Of a stretch of DNA of 64,000 bases, positions 13,961 through 64,000 are shown one piece after another. Source of the DNA: Bolinopsis microptera (lineage: Eukaryota; Ctenophora; Tentaculata; Lobata; Bolinopsidae); contig NC_087078.1 of assembly GCF_026151205.1 (NCBI RefSeq), positions 15,517,118 to 15,581,117 on the forward strand, given 5' to 3'. The position numbers and the translations under genes are program-made. The notes beneath the pieces were generated by a model. That model searched no databases. It saw only the letters and a program-made list of their open reading frames with translations, and was not told the origin of the DNA. Positions within the stretch are counted from its first letter, which is position 1, and each line of letters starts with the position of its first letter.

Positions 13961-15520
13961 TACGGAAGAGGGGCAGACTCGTTCAATGATTATTTGATTT
14001 TTTATTTACAAAGACATTATGACAAAACAAAATTATTGTGATTGGTAAATAAAAAATTTAGTTTAAGTAATTTCTAACGTGGTAGTGTAAAGCTCATGAT
14101 AGAGTCTTATGGAGACTGCTATGGGTGAGTCGAGACTACTCGTGCCACTCGATTTGATGATTTAATTTAATATTATCTTGTGTTTGCTGTATAATAGTTG
14201 ATTAATAATAAAAATATTTGATTTATTGAATGCTACAAGTTGTTCCATATAATTTCAAGGAAATACTGTATATTTCTATTTATATTACGTTTTCTCATAT
14301 GATGTTATGACGTATGATGCATATTCGTATAGGATATATGTAATTCGTGATAACATTTACGTTTTTTGTTTAACCAATAAACCCATTCTGATGAAAATAT
14401 AATTTTATGGAACAGTTTGGGTATCTACAATACTAAATTTGTGTTCAATTTAATTGTGTAATTATTATTTGTTAACTTGCTGTAACTTATGTAATATTTA
14501 GTTGCAACCAACAAGTTTATTATACTTGCAACTTAACTGAAACTTGTTTTGTTTATTAGTTCAATGCGCGTTCCCAACCGGGTCGGACCTGAAACTTGTG
14601 CCTCTGAGATACCATTACTTCTTCTGTCCTCGCAATTAGTTCATCAACAATCATCTATTTTGTTGTTATCACCGGTGCGTGGAGAATAGATAGATACTCG
14701 AAGTTCAAGCGAAAGATAGTATGATGGTAAAATCAGAATAATTGGAATAATGAACAAACTAAGATCGCAGAACCTTGACCCTTACGCTAAACCTACATGT
14801 TTCGGAGAGGTCTAAGTTTATAATTAAAACAAGGTAGTTAACCGTTGTTTAACTATCCTCTCTACGAACTAGTGGTTTTAACTGTCCTCTTTACGGACTA
14901 GTGGTTTAACCCGTAAATATCAAGAGATATTTGGTCCTCGTGGAAGGTTCTAGAAGAATCAGGAGAGAGCTAGGAACTAGCTCGATTCAATCTATAACAG
15001 ATCCCTACGGACACAGAAAAAGATTTTATTGGTAGATAAAATCTTTACGGGGTTTTTATTATACGTCCAAAATTTGAAAAAACAAGCTATGGAGCTATGG
15101 GTCTTGTCACAAATATCTCACATATTGAAAATCAAATGCTAACACGAATTCACAGATTTAATTCTTCTCCATATTCTATTAAAAATAATTTACACGAATT
15201 GTTCGTTGGTCTTCAAGGAAATTTTATTTTCTCCAGTCTGTTATTTCATTTATTAAAAAACTATAGTTTTCGGATTGTCCATTTAGAAGTATTTCAATGA
15301 GCCGTTGTTGGCGTGAGCTGATGTTCATCAACTAGGATCGTGTCTATTCTTGTTAGTTAAGCTTTAGTATGACGGTTGATCCAGAAGGTAAGTCTTTCAC
15401 CCAACTATTGTCAACTTAGATCTTCAAGGTCTTTGGGGTGATGTGGGCTCTATTAGTGTTTTCTAAGGACTAAGTAAGGTAAATGCAGGAGAAATTTTCA
15501 GGTCTTCATGAGAGCGGAAG
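13961..15520. other. No gene seen; small hairpin and short tandem duplication
   Basis: AT-rich. A perfect 11-bp hairpin (AAAGATTTTAT at 15019-15029, complement at 15036-15046, 6-nt loop) lies upstream of the 60-bp satellite. A ~30-bp imperfect tandem duplication, marked by two copies of ACTAGTGGTTT, lies at about 14848-14912. An open frame at 15097-15300 (67 codons) has no recognisable domain. Confidence 0.4.
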
Positions 15521-16405
15521 TGACGTTTAGGACTTCGGTGGAGAAGAAGTAATGTGCAGGGCTTCAATAGAGCAGGAGTGACGTTTAGGACTTCGGTGGA
15601 GAAGAAGTAATGTGTAGGGCTTCAATAGCTAGCAGGAGCGACGTTTAGGACTTCAGTAGAGAAGAAGTAATGTGCAGGGCTTCAATAGCTAGCAGGAGTG
15701 ACGTTTAGGACTTCAGTAGAGAAGAAGTAATGTGTAGGGCTTCAATAGCTAGCAGGAGTGACGTTTAGGACTTCAGTAGAGAAGAAGTAATGTGTAGGGC
15801 TTCAATAGCTAGCAGGAGCGACGTTTAGGACTTCAGTAGAGAAGAAGTAATGTGTAGGGCTTCAATAGCTAGCAGGAGTGACGTTTAGGACTTCAGTAGA
15901 GAAGAAGTAATGTGTAGGGCTTCAATAGCTAGCAGGAGCGACGTTTAGGACTTCAGTAGAGAAGAAGTAATGTGTAGGGCTTCAATAGCTAGCAGGAGCG
16001 ACGTTTAGGACTTCAGTAGAGAAGAAGTAATGTGTAGGGCTTCAATAGCTAGCAGGAGTGACGTTTAGGACTTCAGTAGAGAAGAAGTAATGTGTAGGGC
16101 TTCAATAGCTAGCAGGAGTGACGTTTAGGACTTCAGTAGAGAAGAAGTAATGTGTAGGGCTTCAATAGCTAGCAGGAGCGACGTTTAGGACTTCAGTAGA
16201 GAAGAAGTAATGTGTAGGGCTTCAATAGCTAGCAGGAGTGACGTTTAGGACTTCAGTAGAGAAGAAGTAATGTGTAGGGCTTCAATAGCTAGCAGGAGTG
16301 ACGTTTAGGACTTCAGTAGAGAAGAAGTAATGTGTAGGGCTTCAATAGCTAGCAGGAGCGACGTTTAGGACTTCAGTAGAGAAGAAGTAATGTGTAGGGC
16401 TTCAA
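15521..16405. repeat. 60-bp satellite array, about 14.8 copies
   Basis: Units begin with TGACGTTTAGGACTTC at 15521, 15579 and then every 60 bp to 16359; the last unit is cut at 16405. The first unit is 58 bp (CT missing). The internal units are almost identical, varying mainly at one CpG/TpG site (GGAGCGACG versus GGAGTGACG). Each 60-mer is itself two diverged ~30-bp halves: TTTAGGACTTCAGTAG and TGTAGGGCTTCAATAG, each followed by a purine-rich tail. It does not encode a protein. Confidence 0.97.
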
Positions 16406-16868
16406 TTGAAAAGAGCCATTATTCTTCACAGTCACAATTCACATAATTGCTTTGTAATTTCAGTCTTCGATCGACGAATTTTATGTCGATATCGTAGGTT
16501 TATAACTTGTATTTAGCTTGCTGGACGTATTAATGGAGGCTGTTACAGGAAAAAGCAACTTTCCTGTTAATATTAAAGATTAGCCGACCTGACAAATCAT
16601 GCGACATAATAGTATAACTATAATATAAAAATAAAAGGAATCAGAATTCGCTTCGAAATATGAATGGGGCCTTATTACATATTAGTCCCGTGCTATACTT
16701 ATGTGCGTTTTAAAATTGGACAACCTAGAACTCATAGGCCAATAATTATAAAGTAATTGTATTCATAAAGATCAAATCATCCTCTATCTTGTGTAAAAAG
16801 ATGAGCCAAAATGACCTTAATCTCGTTGAGTTATATCTTGTATCTGCAATCTGTTTTTGCAGTGGGTG
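16406..16868. other. No gene seen
   Basis: Unique-looking AT-rich sequence between the 60-bp satellite and the hAT-like element. Its last 8 bases (AGTGGGTG, 16861-16868) are the left target-site duplication of that element. Confidence 0.6.
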
Positions 16869-23863: not shown

Positions 23864-26800
23864 TTATACTGAGGCTGACGGATTTTCCACCACATATACC
23901 GCATTATTAGCGGTATTTTTCCCGTTAGTTTGATTGTTCTCTGTCTTGTCCGTTTCATCTCCTTCAGAACTGCGACATTTCGCACAAAAGCCAGGTACAC
24001 AGAGAGGGAAATGTGGAGATTTTCTAAGAGGTTGAATTAGGAAGGAGTCTATCAACATTTGTAGGAGTTGAGCAATAAAACAGGGCAGCAGTATCAGGGC
24101 AGGGTCTCCTGAAAATTAATAAACTATTAATTTAATAAATCAATAAATAATTAATAAATATTAATAAACTATTCACATCTTTCATGACAAAGATGTTTCC
24201 CGTCTAAGGGATACTCCCCCAGGCTTAAAATAAAACCTTAACGATCTTCATAACCGGAGCTGATATATATCATAAAATTAGCAATTCAATTGCTCATTGG
24301 TATCAACTAATAAAATTTCACAAATACGACTAATATAAGAAACTTGAGTTGACTGACCTATTTTGTCGGGAAGCGCTGACGCTATAGCAGCCGGGAGCAC
24401 TAAAGTCTTTTGTGAGCAGAGCAATAGCATTACTGACAGGTGTATCCTGAGAGTAACATGTGGGTTATTAGTAACATTGTAGGAATAGGGTACATTGACA
24501 TGATTAAAATACTTTAAATTATTCGCTGAGATCTTTTCATTCTTTTCTCTCTTGAGTCTTGAGTGGGAAGATCATTGCTGATTACTGACGACAAAATGGC
24601 GAGCCAGGGAATCTCCACTCGCTACGAAACAAAATACATTAGGTGTGCGTGTTTAAATGTACTTTGTTTCATAGCGAGACTCTCATCTCGTCATCGGTAA
24701 TCAATAAATTAACTGAATTCTTCAAATTTCTAACCTCTTAAAACAGAAGGAAACCGAGACAAGGAAATTGAGGAGCAAGAGAAGCAGATGACAGGCTATG
24801 ATTATTCCAATGAGTATAAAGATATCGGTCAACCTGTAAAAAGAGAATCTCATAAATGAGTCATAAATAAATAATAAATCGTTTTATCTAATACTGACAA
24901 CAGTACTACTACTACTAATAATGATAGATAGAAAATTATTGCCTACTAAATAACACTGAATACAGATAGAAAACGAACAATAAATTCCCTGATCTTCCGC
25001 GACAAAAGTACATTTTTATCAAACTAAAAACTCACGCTATCAATTCAAAAGTTCCTTTCTTGATGCTGGTGCTAAGTTTAATCCACAATATGATGACGAT
25101 TCCCATACTTTGAACTAAACCTATTTTCCTTTTGTGGACTTTAACGACCTCTCTCACACGAGCGAACACCATGGACACCACTTTACCTGAGATGCCAAGT
25201 CTTATTTTTAGACATTATAATGACTGAAGAAGTACTGAGAAAATAATTATTTTCTTAATTCACTACGAGCTTAACGAACAGTTTCCATAGATAAATAACA
25301 TTCAGAGGAATTTTTTCTAAAGTGTTTTTAACAAAAGAAAAATTGTTAACCTACAAAAAGTGGTAGTATCAGTGACAATCCCAGTTTCATCACCAGTTTC
25401 GTACTGTCTGCTTTCATGGCCTCTGAAAGTTAACACCTAATTTTAAAGATATACTTCTTGTCTATACCATTTAACGGCTTAGTGGCTCAGTTGGTTAATC
25501 CTCCTGGTATTGCTTGAGGTACCAGGTTCGATTCCCGACTCGGTCACTAGCCGTGGGGTGAGCGTCGTCGACGCTCAGCTAAGGATCCTGAGTGGTCTAT
25601 GCAGCCCCCCGGTCCACTCAGCCAAATACTCGAGAAATCGGGTGTGAGGGTTAAATGAGGAGCTGCCCATTGCAGCAAGTCTCGGGCGAAGAAAGTATGG
25701 TACACACTACCTTAACCGTCACTGGCCTAATGTATAATTGAATCCTTCGGCTTCTTGTAATTGGCTGGTTACACACTTGTGTAACAATGTGGCTGTTGGA
25801 ATGTCCGAAGTAAAATAAGTGTTGAGATTTTTTTTTAAAATTGGCTATACCATTATCTAATATTCTCTTCTATTTCATAATACACAATAACAAACTCTCC
25901 GCTAACTTTGCAAACCACACTAAACGCTTAATGGTGCCAGAGGAGTTGGGCCAGACCGGTGTAACATAGCGACTACTCAAACGCGGTGACCGACAACTAG
26001 GAACCTCTCATTTCGGCCTCCCACAGGTATCACATCACATGGCCCAATCAGTGACGTATCATTTGTGATGTGATCCATATTATAACCATCCTAACAGCCG
26101 GACAACCAAGAACCTGGGTAGGGTTCACATGTCAGTTTAGTAAGTAGCTGTGTATTATGAAGTATATTAAGAAGTGTTTGAGCTCTCGGTATGTGTTCAC
26201 ATTACGGACGTGAGCCGGGTCCGAACGATGTGAGCCGGGTCCGAAAGGGGCTGGTTCTCGTATCCAAGGATGTGAGCCGAGCATGCAATGGGAGTGATAC
26301 GAGACATAAAATCACAAGTGCGGGAGTTGATCAGCTGTTAATATACAACCGCACTTCTGGTATATATACTGAAACGTGAACATGAAGAGTATCGGTTTCA
26401 ATTCAACATGCCTGCTTTCTCCAAATTCATCGAAGGACAGAGAGGATCTCAACAGCTGGTGGACACGGACGGTTACATCTACTCCAGAAAGAAGGCTAAA
26501 GATACAGCCATCCACTCTGCTTGGCGATGCCGGAAGCACAACCCTCCTACCAAGTGTCCCAATCATGCCTACCTCAACCTGTCAGATAACGCTTTATCCC
26601 TTGGCTCCAAACTCCACAACCACCCTGCTGACAACGCTGCACCACAGAAGCGTGAAGTCCTCTCCTCACTGAAGCGGAAAGCTGCTGAACAGCCCTTGTC
26701 GGTGACCCAGAACCTCCTCTCTGAAGTCCTAGCAGATTCAACCTCAGAAGCTAATCAGACGCTACCGAACATGGAATCCCTCGCTCGGGTGGTACAACGC

Positions 26801-29424
26801 AGTAGAGCCAAGGCGTCCGGATCTGCACAGCACTCTGAAGCGAAGACCTCAGAAGAATTCCTCCTCCCATCTACCTGCACCTCCACGAGACGGGACGAGC
26901 CCTTTGTTCTCTTCGACGGAAAGACAGATCGGAACGTACGAGTCGTTGCCTTCTCTACAGCCCGGAACCTTGCTACGCTGGCAGAGTACAACAACTGGAT
27001 TGCAGACGGCACGTTTTACGTCGCCCCGAATATATTCACCCAGAGCTATACGATTCATGCTGTTATTGACCAGAAATGTTTGCCGATGATTTATATTTTG
27101 ACTGGAGATAAGGAAGGGGACACTTATCAGTATATTTTTAATGTGGTGAAGTTCTATTTTGACCAGCATTGTCCGGTTGAAACTGGTACAATAATGATTG
27201 ACTTTGAGAAAGCGGTGATGAATGCGCTTCAGAACAGTTTGCCAGGGTGGGATATCAGCAATTGCTACTTCCATCTCTGTCAAGCTGAACATTTCGAAGA
27301 AGTTTAAAGTTTTATATTATTCTGATAAGATGTTTGCTAGAGCCGCAAAGCTGGTTGTGTTTCTCGCCTTTGTCCCAGTTGCTGATGTTGAGGAGGTGTT
27401 CTACCAAATAACATACTACATCCAAGCTAACTATCCTCAGTTAATGGTTGTGGTAAATTATTTCGAGAAAACCTACCTTTGGTCAGTAACTGTCGACAGT
27501 GAGGAAAGGGTTCCTCCCAAGTTTCCTTTGACGTTCTGGAATCACTATTCCAAGACGTTGGAGGATCCGGAGTTTCCCCGGACCTCTAACATGGTCGAGG
27601 GTTTTCATCGTGGATTTAAATCCAGGGTGAATCGACCCAAGCCGACCGTGCAAGAGTACTTCCGTGCTATTCGGGAGCAGCAGGTGATCACTGATTACCA
27701 TATCGATCTGTTCCAAATACTCGGATTGCTCTAGCAAGGTTGACTATCTGTTTGAGATTGCCAAATACTTTGGCCATGAGATTGATATTGAGTAATGTAT
27801 TCTGTATGTAATTATTATGTTGGGTTTGAACTATCATTATCTTGAAAAAAATCTTTGTCTTAATTAATGAGTGCAGAAATATATACAGCACAGCTGTGAA
27901 ATCGGTGGACACCTGAAAGTTTAAAGTATCTCCAGAGGTTCCTAGTTGTCGGGGATATGTCATGATTGGTTCCTAGTTGTCGGAGCTGATTGGATTTCCC
28001 AAGCTTGCATGTTAATTAGTTAACTAGGTAAAATTGAAAGGTTCCTAGTTGTCCGTCAGCCCTCAAACGCCGTCTTATTTCGCCTCTCTCTTCCACACTC
28101 AACCACCACTTAAGCGTTCATCCATGACACACCCCACAACACTTACCATCATCCTTGATTACACATCTTGATTCCACCGGCATCCTCCCACAGGACTGCC
28201 ATACCCCAGAGGTAGGCAAAGCATCCATATGCTATCCTCTCGTGGGCCGACCAGGCCCAGCCTCTCTAAAAAAATTTAAAAAATTTAAAAGAAAACTCTC
28301 CGCTAAGTTTTGAGTAAAACTCATTTCCGCCCTAATGTTCTACTAGTCAATACTACTGTTGAAACTACTAGGTTGTATTCCAACCTGCGTCTACAAAGAG
28401 TGAGAAGAGAAGAGGAGTAAGGAAACAGCCAGCAAGGTTTGTGATAGTGGAGACAGCCACTGCTACAGCCACGTCACCTTTAGCTCCCGTTACCATGATT
28501 ATACCTTGTAAGGTACAAGGTCAGCACGAGTAGATGTAGATGTTAGAAACTTATGTTCGTGTTTCTATTACATTCGAATGAAAAATGTAAATGTGTTCGT
28601 CGACCGATTTTGGCATTCGGAAAAAGAACAGCTGGTATTAAACTGATAATGTTGGATATGAAGAAAATATGGTCAATCATAATTATTCGGTGAGGAAGTA
28701 TTACCTTATCGGACCTTATTTGGACGGACATTAAGGTGAACGCTAGGGCCTCCAGAGTTCAAGTAATGTCCGTCCAAATAAGGTCCGATAAGGTAGTCCA
28801 ACATACATACCAGTAGCGATAGTAGCAGGAGCACAGTTAAAGAGAATTATCCCAAGTTTCAGTTCATCTGGACCAAATGTAAAGGTTCCGTTGCTTGAGC
28901 CATCTTTCTTATCAAATGGCAACTGGAGCAATGTGTATTTTAAGGATTATAATACAACTAAATGAAATTAAATTTCAGTTTTAACATGAATTCGGATCGG
29001 TTTACTATCAGATATTTTGGGGCAATAAATTCCTAATGTAAACACATACCTGATGAACGATGTATCCTGGAATGAGTGTTGTAATAACCAGTGAAGTAAC
29101 ACAACAAATGATGACAACATCAACTGCCGTGTAGACTGATTTTAGTTCATCTGTCTTCAGCTTTAGTCCTGAAATATGTTAAAATGTTCTCAATTTCATT
29201 CTATAAAGCTGTAATGCAGATATCGTCATGTACACGATTGTTGATTTAAGGTAAGCTGTGAAGCACTGCAACTGAATAGTTATAAAAAATGTGCTGTTTA
29301 CTAGCTTTAAGAATAATTTACCAGTAAAGAAAAATATGACAGCCACAATGCAAAGAGAGACAGTTGAGTTGGACAGTTTGGATCCGGGAAGCGGCCAAGC
29401 AAACGCTAATACTACAGCTATAAC
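23864..29424 (-). CDS. SLC10A7-like: SLC10A7-like / SBF-like membrane transporter, nine exons visible
   Basis: Assembled by hand on the minus strand from GT-AG exons whose phases all agree: 29424-29322, 29168-29050, 28922-28811, 28504-28385, 25422-25351, 25186-25036, 24833-24735, 24446-24358, 24108-23864 (stop TAA at 23866-23864). Together they give about 370 residues, close to the family's usual 340-360. Family-typical motifs appear in order: AVIFFFTG|LKLKTDELK (N-terminal half, FF..GL.LKT.EL), LGIILFNCAPATIATG|II (cP.TI.SG), VTGAKGDVAVAVAVST with LTPLL, ILPLFVG|KVV, and LLLCSQKTLVLPAAI (C-terminal crossover motif), then an LP.L.a.LLQ membrane stretch. The tail is hydrophilic (SSEGDETDKTENNQTNGKN). 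SLC10A7 acts in ER/Golgi/plasma-membrane calcium homeostasis in vertebrates; the substrate here is unknown. The first coding exon with the start codon was not found upstream of 29424. The fourth visible intron (25423-28384) is swollen by a SINE, a retroposon and a MULE. Confidence 0.86.
25472..25844 (+). mobile_element. tRNA-derived SINE, copy 1
   Basis: The head is tRNA-like: A box TGGCTCAGTTGG at about 25482 and B box GGTTCGATTCC at about 25526. A tRNA-unrelated body follows (ggggtgagcgtcgtcgac, gcagccccccggtc, ctcgagaaatcgggtgtgag), ending gtaaaataagtg plus a T/A-rich tail. CTATACCATT occurs on both sides (25462-25471 and 25845-25854), a target-site duplication. It lies in an intron of the SLC10A7-like gene on the opposite strand. 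The second copy at 32970-33320 shares the body. Confidence 0.93.
25985..28061 (+). mobile_element. Complete Mutator-like element (MULE), 2077 bp
   Basis: The left terminus starts GGTGACCGACAACTAGG. The right terminus is its imperfect complement (GGTTCCTAGTTGTCCGTCAG before 28061). The flanks are an exact 9-bp duplication, CTCAAACGC, at 25976-25984 and 28062-28070, which is MULE-typical (8-11 bp). A second internal copy of the terminus (GAGGTTCCTAGTTGTCGG) lies at about 27932-27949. It encodes a FLYWCH-MULE transposase broken by a frameshift. It sits inside a retroposon, inside an intron. Confidence 0.93.
26408..27734 (+). pseudogene. FLYWCH-MULE transposase, frameshifted
   Basis: The first frame (26408-27307, 299 codons) begins with a FLYWCH zinc-finger region: LVDTDGYIY near residue 19, the WRC at about residue 40, CPNHAY, then HNHPADN. 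The DDE core follows: NNWIADGTFYVAPN (first D), GTIMIDFEKAVMNAL (second D), and the CYFHLCQA motif just before the frame ends. The continuation lies in another frame from about 27295 to 27734 (LVVFLAFVPVADVEEVF, then TSNMVEGFHRGFKSR with the catalytic E). One frameshift at about 27290-27300 therefore breaks an otherwise collinear transposase. The C-terminus is also cut soon after VITDYHIDLFQI. The start at 26408 precedes the zinc finger by a suitable distance; codon usage does not distinguish alternatives. Confidence 0.92.
28702..28795. mobile_element. 94-bp hairpin MITE with perfect 32-bp inverted repeats
   Basis: 28702-28733 and 28764-28795 are exact reverse complements (outer part TACCTTATCGGACCTTATTT), separated by 30 bp. 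It lies in the third visible intron of the SLC10A7-like gene, 15 bp from the exon-3 splice donor. The outer TA could be the target duplication. A related, rearranged copy occurs at 36254-36345. Confidence 0.9.
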
Positions 29425-36682: not shown

Positions 36683-37009
36683 TTGACCAAAACCCATAAT
36701 CATGGGTAGAGTGTACCGCTGCCAGTGTCTCTCTTTTCCAAACAAAAGGAAATGATATTAATTTGAGGAACAGTCCGCTAATGCAAATTGATACCGAGAA
36801 TGAAATCGGTCGCTCGCTTTTTCAAATCAATAAGCTTTATTACAATTCGTGAGCCGTGATCGAATGGAAAAAGCGAGCGACCGATTTCATTCTCGGTATC
36901 AATTTGCATTAGCGGACTGTTCCTCAAATTAATATCATTTCCTTTTGTTTGGAAAAGAGAGACACTGGCAGCGGTACACTCTACCCATGATTATGGGTTT
37001 TGGTCAAAT
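36681..37009. repeat. Palindrome P1 (143-bp arms)
   Basis: Arms 36681-36823 and 36867-37009 are near-perfect reverse complements, beginning ATTTGACCAAAACCCATAAT. The 43-bp spacer contains an AAGCTT. Followed by D1 (37010-38029). Confidence 0.95.
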
Positions 37010-39480: not shown

Positions 39481-39809
39481 ATTTGACCAAAACCCATAAT
39501 CATGGGTGGAGTGAACCGCTGCCAGTGTCTCTCTTTTCCAAACAAAAGAAAATGATATTAATTTAAGGAACCGTCCGCAAATGCAAATTGATACCGAGAA
39601 TGAAATCGGTCGCTCGCTTTTCCCATTCAATAAGCTTTATTACAATACGTAAGCCGTGAATGAATGGGAAAAGCGAGCGACCGATTTCATTCTCGGTATC
39701 AATTTGCATTTGCGGACGGTTCCTTAAATTAATATCATTTTCTTTTGTTTGGAAAAGAGAGACACTGGCAGCGGTTCACTCCACCCATGATTATGGGTTT
39801 TGGTCAAAT
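39481..39809. repeat. Palindrome P3
   Basis: Same family as P1, with arm-matched private changes (ggtggagtgaacc, ggaaccgtccgc). Preceded by a (TA)n/TATATG tract and followed by D3 (39810-40810). Confidence 0.95.
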
Positions 39810-41236: not shown

Positions 41237-42263
41237 TATATATGTATATATATATGTATATATGTATAGACGCTTTTGCAGTAAATTGTACCCTACATTT
41301 AAGTGTCCGTAGATTCAAAAGTATAAAAGATACAGTCATTTCGAACCACAGGTTTTAAAGATAATTGTTTAAACTTTAGTTTACATTATATCGAAAAATA
41401 ATTTATCGTCATCATCATCACTCGATGACGTCATCAATTTAAGTGTTTTTAAAACTTGATTTTTGACAAAATAACAACTTTTCAAATCGATTTTAAAGCA
41501 TTAAGGAGTAATTTTATTCAAAATCTGAGGACATTTTCATCTTAGATAATTGTTCAAGCATTCTGAAAATCTACCGGAAAGTTTTCCTACCTTGCTCCTT
41601 CATAAAGATATTCGCTATTGAAGTTTGTGCTTTTTTGAAGAATAATTTTATAAAAACACAAAAGTTGTGAATTAGTATTCTCTGGTGTTGGGCCATCCCT
41701 TGGGTTGTGGAGCTCAATTTTGCTTCCTAAAGGTCTAAATTGTGTTATAGGCTAGTTTTAAAGTTGAAAATCGAAAAGTTGCACACGTGGGGACACGCCC
41801 AAATTCATTTAAAATAGCTAAAATCACTAAAAATTGTTATTTTCACGATTTTTACCAACTTTGGAGTCCCGTTGTGATCCAAGTTCTTTTTGAAATCTTC
41901 TGAAACTTTTCATGCTTATCAAACTATATATTAAATAACACTATGCAAAAATTTATGGTGATTCAATATTTTATGCGCACGCAACGTCCGCTTAAAGTTT
42001 GCACGTGCGAAAGGTGAGAATTTTGCTCATTCGTGATTTCGAATATATTCTGCTTTCCCACGATATTAAAATGGCATTATATATGAATTTAATGCCAACT
42101 TGAATGAGTAAAAAGTGCTATATTCAGTCTGTTATTGACAGATATGCCTACCTAAACACAAGGAAACGTTTTCAAAGGTAAAATTTCGAAATCGTTGAAA
42201 TTACCTCCTTATTAAGTTTCGACTGTGTAAATTATCCTGACATTATAATCAAAAAGAGATGAT

Positions 42264-42590
42264 ATTTGACCAAAACCCATAATCATGGGTAGAGTGAACC
42301 GCTGCCAGTGTCTCTCTTTCCAAACAAAAGAAAATGATATTAATTTGAGGAACCGTCCGCAAATGCAAATTGATACCGAGAATGAAATCGGTCGCTCGCT
42401 TTTCCCATTCATTCACGGCTTACGTATTGTAATAAAGCTTATTGAATGGGAAAAGCGAGCGACCGATTTCATTCTCGGTATCAATTTGCATTTGCGGACG
42501 GTTCCTCAAATTAATATCATTTTCTTTTGTTTGGAAAGAGAGACACTGGCAGCGGTTCACTCTACCCATGATTATGGGTTTTGGTCAAAT
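42264..42590. repeat. Palindrome P4 (end of the inverted D-P unit)
   Basis: Lies at the end of the inverted copy of D (41268-42263). P3+D3 and D4+P4 therefore form ~1.33 kb inverted arms around segment B. Right-hand joint is a (TA)n tract leading to the hammerhead element. Confidence 0.95.
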
Positions 42591-42686
42591 ATATATATAT
42601 ATATCAGTGGCGCGGCGTTGGGCTAGCAATCGCAAGGTTGCTGGATCAATACCCGCCATCGGCAAAACCAACCTTGATGATTTGAG

Positions 42687-42729
42687 CCATACTGATGAGT
42701 CCTAATAGGACGAAACACTGTGTCTATGG
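42687..42729 (+). ncRNA. Type I hammerhead ribozyme, copy 1
   Basis: Stem I CCATA (42687-42691) pairs with TATGG (42725-42729). CTGATGA core is at 42692-42698. Stem II GTCC/GGAC (42699-42702 / 42708-42711) has a TAATA loop. GAAA is at 42712-42715. Stem III is only A-C-A / U-G-U around a CTG loop, ending at U42723, with C42724 as the predicted cleavage base. All invariant core bases are present. The open helix is I, so it is type I. Very short stem III is typical of animal retrozymes and may favour dimeric action. Confidence 0.93.
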
Positions 42730-42963
42730 ATAAATATGCTCGCCTAGTTTACTAAGCTTGAGCACTCTAGGGAATGACTAGATCTACCGCTCAGCTTAAA
42801 TGCAAAGCTCCTAACTTGTAATGAGTTTGTAGAGCACTCTGGTACCTATGTAATTCCCTCATTATTAAGGCCTTGGTGGCCCAGTGGCGCGGCGTTGGGC
42901 TAGCAATCGCAAGGTTGCTGGATCAATACCCGCCATCGGCAAAACCAACCTTGATGATTTGAG

Positions 42964-43006
42964 CCATACTGATGAGTCCTGATAGGACGAAACACTGTGT
43001 CTATGG
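42964..43006 (+). ncRNA. Type I hammerhead ribozyme, copy 2
   Basis: Same structure as copy 1: CCATA 42964-42968 / TATGG 43002-43006; CTGATGA 42969-42975; GTCC/GGAC with TGATA loop (one base different from copy 1, in the loop); GAAA 42989-42992; predicted cleavage after C43001. The distance between the two cleavage sites is 277 nt. Confidence 0.93.
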
Positions 43007-43031
43007 ATATATCATATATATATATATATAT

Positions 43032-43557
43032 GCTTCACGACAATCTGTTGTAAAACAGGGGTTCCAGAAAACCCACTTCCCGATACTCCTGAAACCTGAA
43101 ACTTTTTTTGCAGTCGATTTGGTCAACGTCTAGACGCCCTGAAAAATTTCAGATCTCTAACTCAATTTTAACATGGTTTTTTATAAGGCACCTGAATATG
43201 GCGATTTTGGGTTTTTTACCTAATTTCGTATAACATGCTGGCGCGTATTTTGCGCAAATTTCTTAAAAATCTCAACATAACTATTTTTTATTCCTGTCAT
43301 CTTTGACATCAAATTAGAATGTTTTGAACTAAAAATAAATCTGCTGAACGACTTCCGATGAGTCTTAATGCCTGAAAAACTCCTGCCGGAGGCGGCGGCC
43401 TTCGGCCGCCGCCTCCGGCCGGAGTGCACGCTTCGCGTGCACGAAAGAGGCTTCCAACGTGTACCAAAGGGGTTGTAATAGTAAAGGGGTGTAATAGTAA
43501 AGGGGGTACATAGTATTCCCCCAATAAAGACACCGCTCGTGCTTGCCAGCACTGTGA
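43032..43557 (-). repeat. Segment B, inverted copy with an inserted GC-rich hairpin pair
   Basis: Relative to the other B copies it has extra sequence near 43378-43480. This contains a perfect 16-bp stem with a TTC loop (43385-43400 / 43404-43419) and a second hairpin, GTGCACG/CGTGCAC (43424-43430 / 43436-43442). Copies of GTAATAGTAAAGGGG follow. Confidence 0.85.
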
Positions 43558-57189: not shown

Positions 57190-60100
57190 AACAACAACTA
57201 CTGCTACTAACTGTACTACTACTGTACTACTACTACTAACTGTACTACTACTGTACTACTACTACTAACTGTACTACTACTGTACTACTGCTACTAACTG
57301 TACTACTACTGTACTACTACTACTAACTGTACTACTACTGTACTACTTCTACTAACTGTACTACTACTGTACTACTGCTACTAACTGTACTACTGCTACT
57401 AACTGTACTACTACTACTAACTGTACTACTGCTACTAACTGTACTACTACTAACTGTACTACTAATGTACTACTGCTACTAACTGTACTACTACTACTAA
57501 CTGTCTATACTACTAACTGTACTACTACTACTAACCTGTACTACTACTGTACTACTACTACTACTGTACTACTACTGTACTACTACTACTAACTGTACTA
57601 CTACTGTACTACTGCTACTAACTGTACTACTACTACTACTAACTGTACTACTACTGTACTACTACTACTAACTGTACTACTACTCCTACTACTGTTCTAC
57701 TACTGTACCTACTACTACTAATGTACTACTTACTGTACTACTGCTACTAACTGTACTACTACTACTACTAACTGTACTACTACTGTACTACTGCTACTAA
57801 CTGTACTACTACTGTACTACTGCTACTAACTGTACTACTACTGTACTACTGCTTCTAACTGTACTACTACTGTACTACTGCTATAACTGTAACTACTGCT
57901 ACTAACTGTCTACTAACTGTACTACTTACAGTACTACTACTTACTAAACTGTACTACTGACTACTACTAACTGTACTACTACTGTACTACTACTACTAAC
58001 TGTACTACTACTGTACTACTGCTACTAACGTGTACTACTACTGTACTACTGCTACTAACTGTACTACTACTGTACTACTGCTACTAACTGTACTACTACT
58101 ACTACTAACTGTACTACTACTGTACTACTACTACTAACTGTACTACTACTGTACTACTACTACTAACTGTACTCCTACTGTACTACTGCTACTAACTGTA
58201 CTACTACTACTAACTATCTACTACTGCTGTACTACTACTACTAACTGTACTACTACTGTACTACTGCTACTAACTGTACTACTACTGTACTACTGCTACT
58301 AACTGTACTACTACTGTACTACTGCTACTACACTGTACTATGCTACTAACTGTACTACTAACCTGTACTACTACTGTACTACTACTACTAACTGTACTAC
58401 TACTACTACTAACTGTACTACTACTGTACTACTACTACTAACTGTACTACTACTGTACTACTACTACTAACTGTACTACTACTGTACTACTGCTACTAAC
58501 TGTACTACTACTGTACTACTGCTACTAACTGTACTACTACTGTACTACTACTACTAACTGTACTACTACTGTACTACTACTGCTACTAACTGTACTACTG
58601 CTACTAACTGTACTACTACTGTACTACTGCTACTAACTGTACTACTACTGTACTACTGCTACTAACTGTACTACTGCTACTAACTGTACTACTACTGTAC
58701 TACTACTACTAACTGTACTACTACTGTACTACTACTACTAACTGTACTACTTCTGTACTACTGCTAATAACTGTACTACTACTACTATCTGTACAACTAC
58801 TGTACTGCTACTACTAACTGTACTACTACTGTACTACTACTACTAACTGTACTACTACTGTACTACTGCTACTAACTGTACTACTACTGTACTACTGCTA
58901 CTAACTGTACTACTAACTGTACTACTACTACTACTAACTGTACTACTACTGTGCTACTGCTACTAACTGTACTACTACTACTACTAACTGTACTACTACT
59001 GTACTACTACTACTAACTGTACTACTACTGTACTACTGCTACTAACTGTACTACTGCTACTAACTGTACTACTACTGTACTACTGCTACTAACTGTACTA
59101 CTACTACTAACTGTATACTACTGTACTACTACTAACTGTACTACTACTGTACTACTACTACTAACTGTACTACTACTGTACTACTACTACTAACTGTACT
59201 ACTACTGTACTACTGCTACTAACTGTACTACTACTGTACTACTACTACTAACTGTACTACTACTGTACTACTGCTATTAACTGTACTACTACTGTACTAC
59301 TACTACTAACTGTACTACTACTACTAACTGTACTACTACTGTATTACTACTACTAACTGTACTACTACTGTACTACTGCTACTAACTGTACTACTACTGT
59401 ACTATTACTACTAACTGTACTACTACTGTACTACTACTACTAACTGTACTACTACTGTACTACTGCTACTAACTGTACTACTACTGTACTACTACTACTA
59501 ACTGTACTACTACTGTACTACTGCTACTAACTGTACTACTACTGTACTACTGCTACTAACTGTACTACTACTGTACTACTGCTACTAACTGTACTACTGC
59601 TACTAACTGTACTACTACTGTACTACTGCTACTAACTGTACTACTACTACTAACTGTACTACTACTGTACTACTACTAACTGTACTACTACTGTACTACT
59701 ACTACTAACTGTACTACTACTGTACTAACTACTACTAACTGTACTACTACTGTACTACTGCTACTAACTGTACTACTACTGTACTACTACTACTAACTGT
59801 ACTACTACTGTACTACTGCTATTAACTGTACTACTACTGTACTACTACTAACTAACTGTACTACTACTACTAACTGTACTACTACTGTATTACTACTACT
59901 AACTGTACTACTACTGTACTACTGCTACTAACTGTACTACTACTGTACTATTACTACTAACTGTACTACTACTGTACTACTACTACTAACTGTACTACTA
60001 CTGTACTACTGCTACTAACTGTACTACTACTGTACTACTACTACTAACTGTACTACTACTGTACTACTGCTACTAACTGTACTACTACTACTAACTGTAC

Positions 60101-61024
60101 TACTGCTGTACTACTACTACTAACTGTACTACTACTGTACTACTGCTACTAACTGTACTACTACTGTACTACTGCTACTAACTGTACTACTACTGTACTA
60201 CTGCTACTAACTGTACTACTGCTACTAACTGTACTACTAACTGTACTACTACTGTACTACTACTACTAACTGTACTACTACTACTACTAACTGTACTACT
60301 ACTGTACTACTACTACTAACTGTACTACTACTGTACTACTACTACTAACTGTACTACTACTGTACTACTGCTACTAACTGTACTACTACTGTACTACTGC
60401 TACTAACTGTACTACTACTGTACTACTACTACTAACTGTACTACTACTGTACTACTACTGCTACTAACTGTACTACTGCTACTAACTGTACTACTACTGT
60501 ACTACTGCTACTAACTGTACTACTACTGTACTACTGCTACATACTGTACTACTGCTACTAACTGTACTACTACTGTACTACTACTACTAACTGTACTACT
60601 ACTGTACTACTACTACTAACTGTACTACTGCTGTACTACTGCTACTAAACTGTACTACTACTTACTATCTGTACTACTACTGTACTACTACTACTAACTG
60701 TACTACTACTACTACTAACTGTACTACTACTGTACTACTACTACTACTGTACTACTACTGTACTACTACTACTAACTGTACTACTACTGTACTACTGCTA
60801 CCTAACTGTACTACTACTGTACTACTGCTACTAACTGTACTACTACTGTACTACTACTACTAACTGTACTACTACTGTACTACTACTGCTACTAACTGTA
60901 CTACTGCTACTAACTGTACTACTACTGTACTACTGCTACTAACTGTACTACTACTGTTACTACTGCTACTAACTGTACTACTGCCTACTAACTGTACTAC
61001 TACTGTACTACTACTACTAACTGT
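57190..61024. repeat. 29-bp satellite array, clean block 1
   Basis: The main unit is 29 bp, made of an 11-bp part (TGTACTACTAC) and an 18-bp part (TGTACTACTACTACTAAC, with an A/G variant ...CTGCTACTAAC). Shorter 18- and 24-bp variants occur when parts are missing. Stop codons occur in every frame. Longer-range order is visible: see findings. Confidence 0.97.
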
Positions 61025-61500
61025 ATACTATTCTACCTATAACTGTATATTCTTATATTACTAATGCATACACTCTGTACTTATTTCTTTATACAACTTA
61101 CTCTATTACATTACTCTGAATATGTCTATTCTAAAATGTCTCTCTGTTACTCTATAAAATACAACTTTACTATATCTATAAGTACTACTACTGTTACTTA
61201 AATGTATATATTATAACTTACTATATGATACTACTACAAGTCTACTATGTATATCTACTAATGTTATCCCCTAATGTACTATACGTACTATGCTACTAAC
61301 GTATCTACTTAACTGACTACTACTGTTCATAACTTATACTTGTATACTACTATAACTGTAACTACGTATCTATATAACTGTACTATACTGTACTACTGTA
61401 CTAACTGTATACTACTGTTATACTATAAGTATATTGTACTATGTATTAACTGTACTATACGTACTACTTAAACGTTTATACTATAATTACTACTAGTATT
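61025..61500. repeat. Decayed stretch of the satellite between clean blocks
   Basis: The same words (ACTGTA, TACTAC) with many deletions and AT drift, flanked on both sides by near-perfect units. The transitions are abrupt. Confidence 0.85.
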
Positions 61501-63375
61501 ACTACTACTAACTGTATCTACTGTACTACTGCTACTAACTGTACTACTACTGTACTATTACTACTAACTGTACTACTACTGTACTACTACTACTAACTGT
61601 ACTACTACTGTACTACTGCTACTAACTGTACTACTATGTACTACTACTACTAACTGTACTACTACTGTACTACTGCTACTAACTGTACTACTACTGTACT
61701 ATGCTACTAACTGTACTACTACTGTACTACTGCTACTAACTGTACTACTGCTACTAACTGTACTACTACTACTAACTGTACTACTACTGTACTACTACTA
61801 CTAACTGTACTACTACTACTACTAACTGTACTACTAATTGTAATACTGCTACTAACTGTACTACTACTACTAACTGTACTACTACTACTACTAACTGTAC
61901 TACTACTGTACTACTACTACTAACTGTACTACTACTGTACTACTACTACTAACTGTACTACTAATGTACTACTGCTACTAACTGTACTACTACTACTACT
62001 AACTGTACTACTACTGTACTACTACTACTAACTGTACTACTACTACTACTACTAACTGTACTACTACTGTACTACTACTACTAACTGTACTACTTCTGTA
62101 CTACTGCTACTAACTGTACTACTACTACTATCTGTACTACTACTGTACTACTACTACTAACTGTACTACTACTACTAACTGTACTACTACTGTACTACTA
62201 CTACTAACTGTACTATACTGTACTACTACTACTAACTGTACTACTACTGTACTACTGCTACTAACTGTACTACTACTGTACTACTGCTACTAACTGTACT
62301 ACTACTGTACTACTACTACTGTACTACTAACTGTACTACTACTGCTACTAACTGTACTACTGCTACTAACTGTACTACTACTGTACTACTGCTACTAACT
62401 GTACTACTACTGTACTACTGCTACTAACTGTACTACTGCTACTAACTGTACTACTACTGTACTACTACTACTAACTGTACTACTACTATACTACTACTAC
62501 TAACTGTACTACTTCTGTACTACTGCTACTAACTGTACTACTTCTACTATCTGTACTACTACTGTACTGCTACTACTAACTGTACTACTACTGTACTACT
62601 ACTACTAACTGTACTACTACTGTACTACTGCTACTAACTGTACTACTACTGTACTACTGCTACTAACTGTACTACTAACTGTATACTACTACTACTAACT
62701 GTACTACTACTGTGCTACTGCTACTAACTGTACTACTACTACTACTAACTGTACTACTACTGTACTACTACTACTAACTGTACTACTACTGTACTACTGC
62801 TACTAACTGTACTACTGCCACTAACTGTACTACTACTGTACTACTGCTCTAACTGTACTAACTACTACTAACTGTACTACTACTGTACTACTACTAACTA
62901 CTACTACTGTACTACTACTACTAACTGTACTACTACTGTACTACTACTACTAACTGTACTACTACTGTACTACTGCTACTAACTGTACTACTACTGTACT
63001 ACTACTACTAACTGTACTACTACTGTCCTACTGCTATTAACTGTACTACTACTGTACTACTACTACTAACTGTACTACTACTACTAACTGTACTACTACT
63101 GTATTACTACTACTAACTGTACTACTACTGTACTAACTGTACTAACTGACTACTACTGTTACTTACTACTAAACTGTACTACTACTGTACTACTACTACT
63201 AACTGTACTACTACTGTACTACTGCTACTAACTGTACTACTACTGTACTACTACTACTAACTGTACTACTACTGTACTACTGCTACTAACTGTACTACTA
63301 CTGTACTACTGCTACTAACTGTACTACTACTGTACTACTGCTACTAACTGTACTATGCTACTAACTGTACTACTA
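61501..63375. repeat. 29-bp satellite array, clean block 2
   Basis: Same unit as block 1. The order of variant units around 62690-63105 repeats that around 58930-59345 (offset about 3762 bp), including the rare markers GTGCTACTGC, GCTATTAACTG and GTATTACTAC. Confidence 0.97.
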
Positions 63376-64000
63376 TATTGTACTATACTGTATACTATAA
63401 AAACTGTTATATATCAAACTGTACTATAATTGTAATATGAAAAATGTATATATATAAGTACTATTATAAAATGTTACTACGTCTACTATCAATGTTATAT
63501 GTACTATACTATAACGTATACTTGTATACGCTACTAACTGTATAAATTACTACTAATTACTATACTGTCTACTATATAATGTATTACATATTAACGTACT
63601 ATAGTAATTAAAAAGTACTATTGTACTACTATACTAACTGTATATACTGTAAAATGTTTAACTTTTACTAATATAAAAATGTATATGTGTACTACTATTA
63701 ACGTTTATTGTATACTGTATAATGTTTACTGTTTGATAATGTACTTATGTATATGCTAAAACTTTTAATGCTATAACTGACTATAAGTATAAAAGTACTT
63801 ATAAAAACTGTACTATATATACTAATGTATATAGTACTAAAATTAATGTACTACTACTGTATCTATATAAGTATTTACTTATATGTTAATTTACTACCTG
63901 TATATGTACTAACTGTATTCTATGTACTTTTTTATACAAAACCTGTATATAGTATTATGCTACTAATTAATGCTATAACTGTCATACTGTACTATGCTAC
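63376..64000. repeat. Decayed end of the satellite array
   Basis: From about 63376 the units lose C and G and gain A/T, as in 9600-10785. The window ends inside it. Confidence 0.85.

Follow-up and report, generated by a model that had tools for sequence, protein, structure and literature searches.

A probable metazoan-type retrozyme family with one 3′ junction and TA-tract targets

Introduction

Two predicted hammerhead ribozymes lie close together on one strand of the window, by which we mean the whole 64,000-nt stretch of DNA analyzed here. An earlier note had read positions 42605..43009 as a tandem 277-bp repeat bounded by TA tracts, in which each ribozyme is coupled to a tRNA-like pol III promoter. 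What kind of element is this, and by what route would such a repeat come to lie in a TA tract? The route of animal retrozymes back to DNA, and the enzyme that serves it, are left open in the accessible retrozyme literature. Here, the insert is compared with its relatives across the genome, and their junctions are read for the likely route.

Results

A 277-bp tandem unit in a TA tract

The insert occupies 42605-43006 and amounts to 1.45 units of a 277-bp tandem repeat inside a (TA)n tract. The tandem repeat is borne out by two copies, 42605-42735 and 42882-43012, that lie in register 277 bp apart and are 98% identical. Two sites set them apart, namely 42704, which falls in the stem II loop, and 42733. 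The position equivalent to 42733 in the second copy lies beyond the 3′ end of the insert. The proposed start at 42605 holds but the end at 43009 does not, since the insert stops at G43006 and the next ATA is read as target. The features are as follows.

42589..42604, no strand: (TA)n tract on the 5′ side, target of the insertion (from the sequence)
42605..43006, plus strand: retrozyme insert, which begins at unit position 1 and ends with G125 in the second unit (from self-comparison and genome matches)
42605..42663, plus strand: head of unit 1, a stable hairpin with a B-box-like motif at 42643-42653 and a weak A-box-like stretch at about 42608-42618 (from the fold and pattern counts)
42687..42729, plus strand: type I hammerhead ribozyme 1, predicted to cleave after C42724 (from RF00163, 35.9 bits)
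42730..42881, plus strand: body of unit 1, noncoding, whose first letters are the putative RNA priming site AUAAAUAU (42730-42737) (from the sequence, body copies and the L099 junction)
42882..42940, plus strand: head of the second, incomplete unit, with a B-box-like motif at 42920-42930 (from self-comparison and the pattern count)
42964..43006, plus strand: type I hammerhead ribozyme 2, predicted to cleave after C43001; the insert's 3′ end coincides with its last base, G43006 (from RF00163, 32.4 bits)
43007..43031, no strand: 3′ flanking (TA)n tract, the target (from the TA-richness of the family's 3′ flanks)

The unit has a GC content of 46%, i.e. below 50%. Folded as a linear RNA, the whole 277-nt unit is highly self-paired at −90.7 kcal/mol, with a z of −2.81 and 1/200 shuffles as good.

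Several other features were seen in the window. At 42262-42592, two perfectly inverted arms of 150 nt around a spacer of 31 nt make a MITE-like foldback that reaches into the TA tract. Its chance match in Rfam is shared by hairpins near 36792-36898 and 39592-39698, and by eye the same end lies beside three relatives of the insert, L007, L043 and L096. There are also a 6.2-kb minisatellite of ACT-rich 29/58-bp units (57197-63397), a 60-bp minisatellite of 14.8 copies with 98% matches (15519-16406), and one open frame with FLYWCH zinc finger and MULE transposase domains (26342-27304).

Predicted hammerhead ribozymes in both copies

The covariance-model search that the earlier note had proposed gives a hit at each copy. 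With Rfam RF00163 (Hammerhead_1), whose gathering cut-off is 34 bits, copy 1 scores over the cut-off (42685-42731, 35.9 bits, E 2.6e-5) and copy 2 just under it (42962-43008, 32.4 bits, E 3.6e-4). The invariant core letters and the cleavage C (42724 and 43001) are present in both copies as had been claimed, and the sole difference within the ribozymes is indeed in the stem II loop at 42704, while 42733 lies outside the ribozyme.

The three helices that had been proposed stand on paper, as do the cleavage positions, but they are only partly recovered by folding. At minimum energy, the isolated hammerhead segments have stem II and lack helix I (z −0.89 and −0.73). The whole-unit fold is predicted to have helix I and stem II, with the 3-bp stem III missing. 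Covariation within the family gives no support for the pairs, as 87.8% of cells pair in 39 distinct sequences versus 88.7% in shuffles; with no compensatory changes, it was dropped as support for the fold. The exact hammerhead string has 0 matches among viral contigs.

A dispersed family

Used as a query against the genome, the 405-bp stretch has at least 60 matches with 80–100% identity (40 scored of 77 first-look candidates). RF00163 has at least 69 (74 scored of 35380 first-look candidates), with 67 exceeding the cut-off, and this count is a lower bound, copy 2 of the window being absent from its list. The same model has no match in the search tool's own set of 14 control genomes (0/14). 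Thus, two outcomes that the earlier note had named as fatal, no covariance-model match and no other copies in the genome, are both contradicted, and the family is mobile as proposed.

A hand count from the 405-bp, head, hammerhead, body and RF00163 searches places the family at 54 separate places or more, including duplicates of larger stretches recognized by shared flanks (L034/L035, L054/L094 and L051/L097). Nine places found by RF00163 only (L095-L103) all belong to the same retrozyme family. Divergent minimal hammerheads would escape the genome searches used.

The elements range from 0.14 to 6.5 units. Their divergence is 4.2% on average within elements (median 2.1%) and 7.4% between elements. 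The units of some arrays are near-identical (0.19% in L002, 0% in L007 and L059), which is expected if one template is copied repeatedly, and by their sequences these three arrays appear young. Other arrays are uneven, with a within-element divergence of 17.9% in L031 and 3.2% in L016 and L058, and L016 consists of two unlike units. Such divergence may come partly from age or sequencing indels.

L054 and L094, whose flanks are alike, both jump within the unit from about 48-73 to 36 onward, which may reflect template switching. In L056 (C1:12163000-12172000), an element with inverted ends TAGTACAGACAGATC interrupts the retrozyme, apparently with a duplication of 3 bp.

One 3′ end, many 5′ ends

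The elements were oriented by their hammerhead, and their junctions fill 55 element rows. In 49/55 rows, the insert extends 5 nt beyond the cleavage site and closes with the final G of helix I (TATGG or close to it); the letters right after helix I are then ATA (42 rows), ATG (4), GTA (2) or GAT (1). None of the 55 rows has an insert ending at the cleavage site C120 itself. The exceptions to the fixed end are L031 and L039 without a 3′ part, L041 minus running into a diverged head, half of L056 split by the later insertion, L048 stopping at unit position 122 and L098 ending in TAT.

The TA-tract boundaries of the earlier reading are real, and most flanks in the family are rich in TA. Counting a flank as TA-rich when its TA/AT steps are 0.6 or more, the 3′ flank is so in 31/36 parsed elements (L048 among them misparsed) versus 0.7% of the window 16-mers, and the 5′ flank in 24/40 elements. 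The 5′ ends are scattered around the unit, with 14, 6, 4, 1, 7 and 4 in six bins (36 elements). They are densest near the head (Rayleigh p 0.005), partly because short inserts are common. Clusters of 5′ ends near 257-262 and near 123-126, the latter being what complete rounds on a circle would give, are suggestive at most: they are few and partly ambiguous against the TA flanks.

Target duplications and uninterrupted target copies

Because TA flanks match by chance, the own flanks of each element were compared with swapped ones. Within 3 nt of the junction, a score of 12 or more is reached by 12/37 own pairs versus 8.2% of the 1332 swapped ones (Mann-Whitney p 1.7e-5, with the caveat that pairs are not independent), and directly at the junction by 9/37 own pairs versus 4.8% of the swapped. 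The 37 pairs come from 46 rows, with the L056 halves merged and with L031, L035, L039, L041 minus, L048, one of L053, L091 and L094 dropped as duplicates or as lacking a readable end. In 9/37 elements, no flank match is present even within 25 nt.

The search for target duplications that had been suggested succeeds in the clear cases, where they measure 13–16 bp: 13 bp in L002, 16 in L007, 14 in L033, 13 in L046 and 13 in L059. The L046 duplication begins with G, and hence the insert end is placed at G125. L010 has a 15-bp duplication plus 5 extra nt. In the window copy, the flanks match over 6 nt only and make no sure target duplication.

The joined flanks of L033 match 40/40 scored places (1538 candidates), 37 of them along the full 143 nt and the other 3 from position 3 on. 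These uninterrupted targets are paralogs, not alleles, and belong to a dispersed repeat that has a TA tract inside it. Taken together, the fixed 3′ end, the variable 5′ ends, the TA flanks, the duplications and the empty sites argue for a fixed internal start of reverse transcription at TA tracts.

The inner TA tract of this common dispersed repeat (1538 first-look candidates) is a target for several retrozyme copies. The same repeat runs from window position 43032 onward, and by eye it flanks L007, L016, L033, L042, L043, L045, L051 and L058.

Circular or uncleaved template

No insert ends at C120, so reverse transcription does not begin from the 3′ end of a linear self-cleaved RNA. L099 retains AUAAAU past helix I at its 3′ junction, beside a non-TA flank, and hence its template continued past the cut site. 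The two observations together leave a template that is either circular or uncleaved. As against uncleaved multimers, a circular RNA is the template we would back, with some reserve.

The closest alternative keeps the same internal start and differs in the template alone, which would be an uncleaved multimeric read-through RNA, so that the ribozyme is unneeded for integration. It predicts identical junctions and would suit L016 with its two unlike units and the very uneven L031 (17.9%). For an anole Penelope-like element in vitro, the accessible text of PMC11167929 calls unprocessed RNA the dominant substrate and has HHR mutants leave insertion unaffected. However, the hammerhead core is intact in 62/68 units, and in at least one unit of 33/34 loci (L090-L103 left out), and an active ribozyme should cut the multimers. 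Moreover, in 34 units the ribozyme has changed less (32/1453 cells) than the body (143/3893), the head standing at 99/1696, with cells not independent and kinship uncorrected. On balance, the uncleaved template is possible but unlikely.

The head and the promoter question

The tRNA-like pol III head of the earlier note survives in part. What stands is the B box, whose pattern GGWTCRANNCC is found in 48/68 units and three times on both strands of the 64-kb window, two of them in this insert. The A box is poor, its stretch of the head lacking in the family alignment the conserved A of the A-box consensus. The tRNA model RF00005 has no match in the window, L001, L042 or L048, and ARAGORN has no tRNA match in the window. 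Nor is there a single 5′ start among the insert ends of 36 elements, where 5′ truncation could hide one.

A single long hairpin is predicted for the head (z −3.99), and a tRNA ancestry is plausible. The scored genome matches of the head are all inside the retrozyme family (40/40 scored, 53 candidates), and the idea that it exists as an independent SINE was dropped. TTTT is absent from the window's unit and present in 2/25 full units. As it is absent also from 1124/2000 shuffles, its absence is too weak as evidence for pol III.

A classical tRNA-derived SINE, i.e. a pol III transcript with a (UA)n tail that is mobilized by a LINE and carries the ribozyme as a passenger, would account for the B-box motif in those 48/68 units. 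It would not account for the lack of a tRNA-model or ARAGORN match, for the tandem arrays of up to 6.5 units, or for 5′ ends that, in 36 elements, fall all along the unit without one common start, even if they crowd near the head (Rayleigh p 0.005). Besides, the TA run 3′ of the insert is the duplicated target in the clear cases and is present also in the uninterrupted target copies. This makes the SINE reading very improbable. Satellite DNA made by unequal exchange without an RNA step would fit the tandem arrays, some with almost identical units, but is hardly conceivable for 54 dispersed places, many of less than one unit, that share one 3′ end, are truncated on the 5′ side and have target duplications.

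A candidate helper enzyme

In the mechanism preferred here, the reverse transcriptase (RT) would be a borrowed one. An RT-like fragment, itself with no Pfam match, adjoins the insert L095. As a query it has at least 121 genome matches (150 scored of 302 candidates), of which 24 are in open frames of 902-993 aa. Tandem RT-like frames lie at C5:23559460-23569641 and C6:13646812-13657002, with four matches each at a period of about 3.35 kb, and the frame has 959 aa in 3/4 of the C5 array and 4/4 of the C6 array.

One copy of the C5 array, L104, has an N-terminal GIY-YIG match of 20.9 bits (E 4.5e-4), under the Pfam cut-off of 22.6. It presumably carries RT motifs, and the N-terminal position of its GIY-YIG is reminiscent of the Naiad/Chlamys group. 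The Pfam RT domain has no match in L104, and so the Penelope label is based on the GIY-YIG plus the presumed RT motifs. L104 has no hammerhead either (Rfam, E up to 10), and thus no RNA feature common to the helper and the retrozyme is established.

As described in the available part of PMC11167929, canonical Penelope-like elements are defined by GIY-YIG with a telomerase-like RT, and one purified enzyme of this kind cleaves AT-rich DNA and begins reverse transcription at an internal position of its own RNA. The retrozyme junctions match both activities, the AT-rich cutting and the internal start. Penelope-like elements are also named strong candidates for retrozyme mobilization in the accessible text of PMC7229834. 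A Penelope-like (GIY-YIG) enzyme is thus a rather probable mobilizer of the retrozyme.

Discussion

The family is real, of the metazoan retrozyme type and probably recently active. With good probability, it is a noncoding, non-autonomous element of the metazoan (non-LTR) retrozyme type with an internal start at TA tracts. What appears new, as read from the DNA alone, is the insertion anatomy of a fixed 3′ junction after helix I, variable 5′ ends and TA targets. The family would give an unusually clean sequence-level answer as to the route back to DNA, having one start site, one target kind, readable duplications and uninterrupted target copies.

In the proposed mechanism, tandem 277-bp copies would be transcribed, the predicted hammerhead in each unit would cut the RNA after C120 of the unit, and the cleaved units would be ligated into 277-nt circles. 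A borrowed reverse transcriptase would nick a (TA)n tract, and the cDNA would start inside the RNA at one constant site, immediately behind helix I, between GG and AUAAAUAU and 5 nt past the cleavage site. Priming would probably occur via pairing of a TAT primer end with AUA. Running along the RNA for 0.14 to 6.5 units, the enzyme would leave tandem units and 13–16 bp duplications, with the 3′ end always the same and the 5′ ends dispersed.

The most complete version combines a B-box pol III promoter, ribozyme-made circles and Penelope-like rolling reverse transcription from the helix I base in TA microsatellites. The ribozyme domain would then serve also as the start signal. As a whole, this combination is offered tentatively. 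A single purified enzyme and a single 277-nt RNA would suffice for a direct test of the circle-plus-Penelope model.

The literature search found no paper linking a ctenophore with a hammerhead ribozyme; supplementary files and most subscription papers were outside it, and an earlier mention is possible. A squid genome paper (PMC6962438) contains the words hammerhead and SINE. The comparisons below follow the accessible parts of the reports cited.

The schistosome Sm-alpha SINE-like repeats likewise have a hammerhead plus a tRNA-related part (PMC2770079, PMC4918200). Compared by description only, they contain a full tRNA-Gln that is caught by tRNA prediction, whereas no tRNA model has a match here. 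The Nematostella hammerhead repeats, also compared by description only, are tandem with a type I hammerhead and have 15-bp target duplications likened to those of LINEs (PMC4918200). The plant LTR retrozymes have a type III hammerhead in their LTRs, while it is the type I model that matches here.

Penelope-like elements share with the family the hammerhead, the tandem copies, the AT-rich targets and the internal reverse transcription start (PMC11167929). They encode GIY-YIG and RT, whereas the retrozyme is noncoding and its 277-bp unit is too short for either. Unlike theirs, its start site is directly at the helix I end. Furthermore, the start site of the anole element is not homologous to the cut DNA (PMC11167929), whereas AUA may pair with the target here.

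The closest known kind is the metazoan non-LTR retrozymes (Cervera & de la Pena 2020, PMC7229834), which likewise have a type I hammerhead, noncoding tandem repeats and RNAs of about 170-400 nt. The 277-bp unit is within their 150-450 bp tandem-repeat range, and the arrays are dispersed like theirs. Also common to both are the GC content below 50%, the copies from dimers to multimers and the highly self-paired RNA, and their target duplications, when present, exceed 4 bp, to be compared with 13–16 bp here. Penelope-like elements occur in the same genomes as those retrozymes (PMC7229834), and here there are RT-like frames, one with a sub-cut-off GIY-YIG.

The host is another one and the sequence apparently so, the two being set apart by description only. 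The (TA)n targeting and the fixed 3′ junction are not among the metazoan retrozyme features described in the accessible text of PMC7229834. This family has a B-box head, whereas retrozymes seem to be without promoters according to the available part of a 2020 review (PMC7761336). Hence, this is likely a known kind of element in a new phylum, and it extends the animal retrozymes to ctenophores if the host is a ctenophore.
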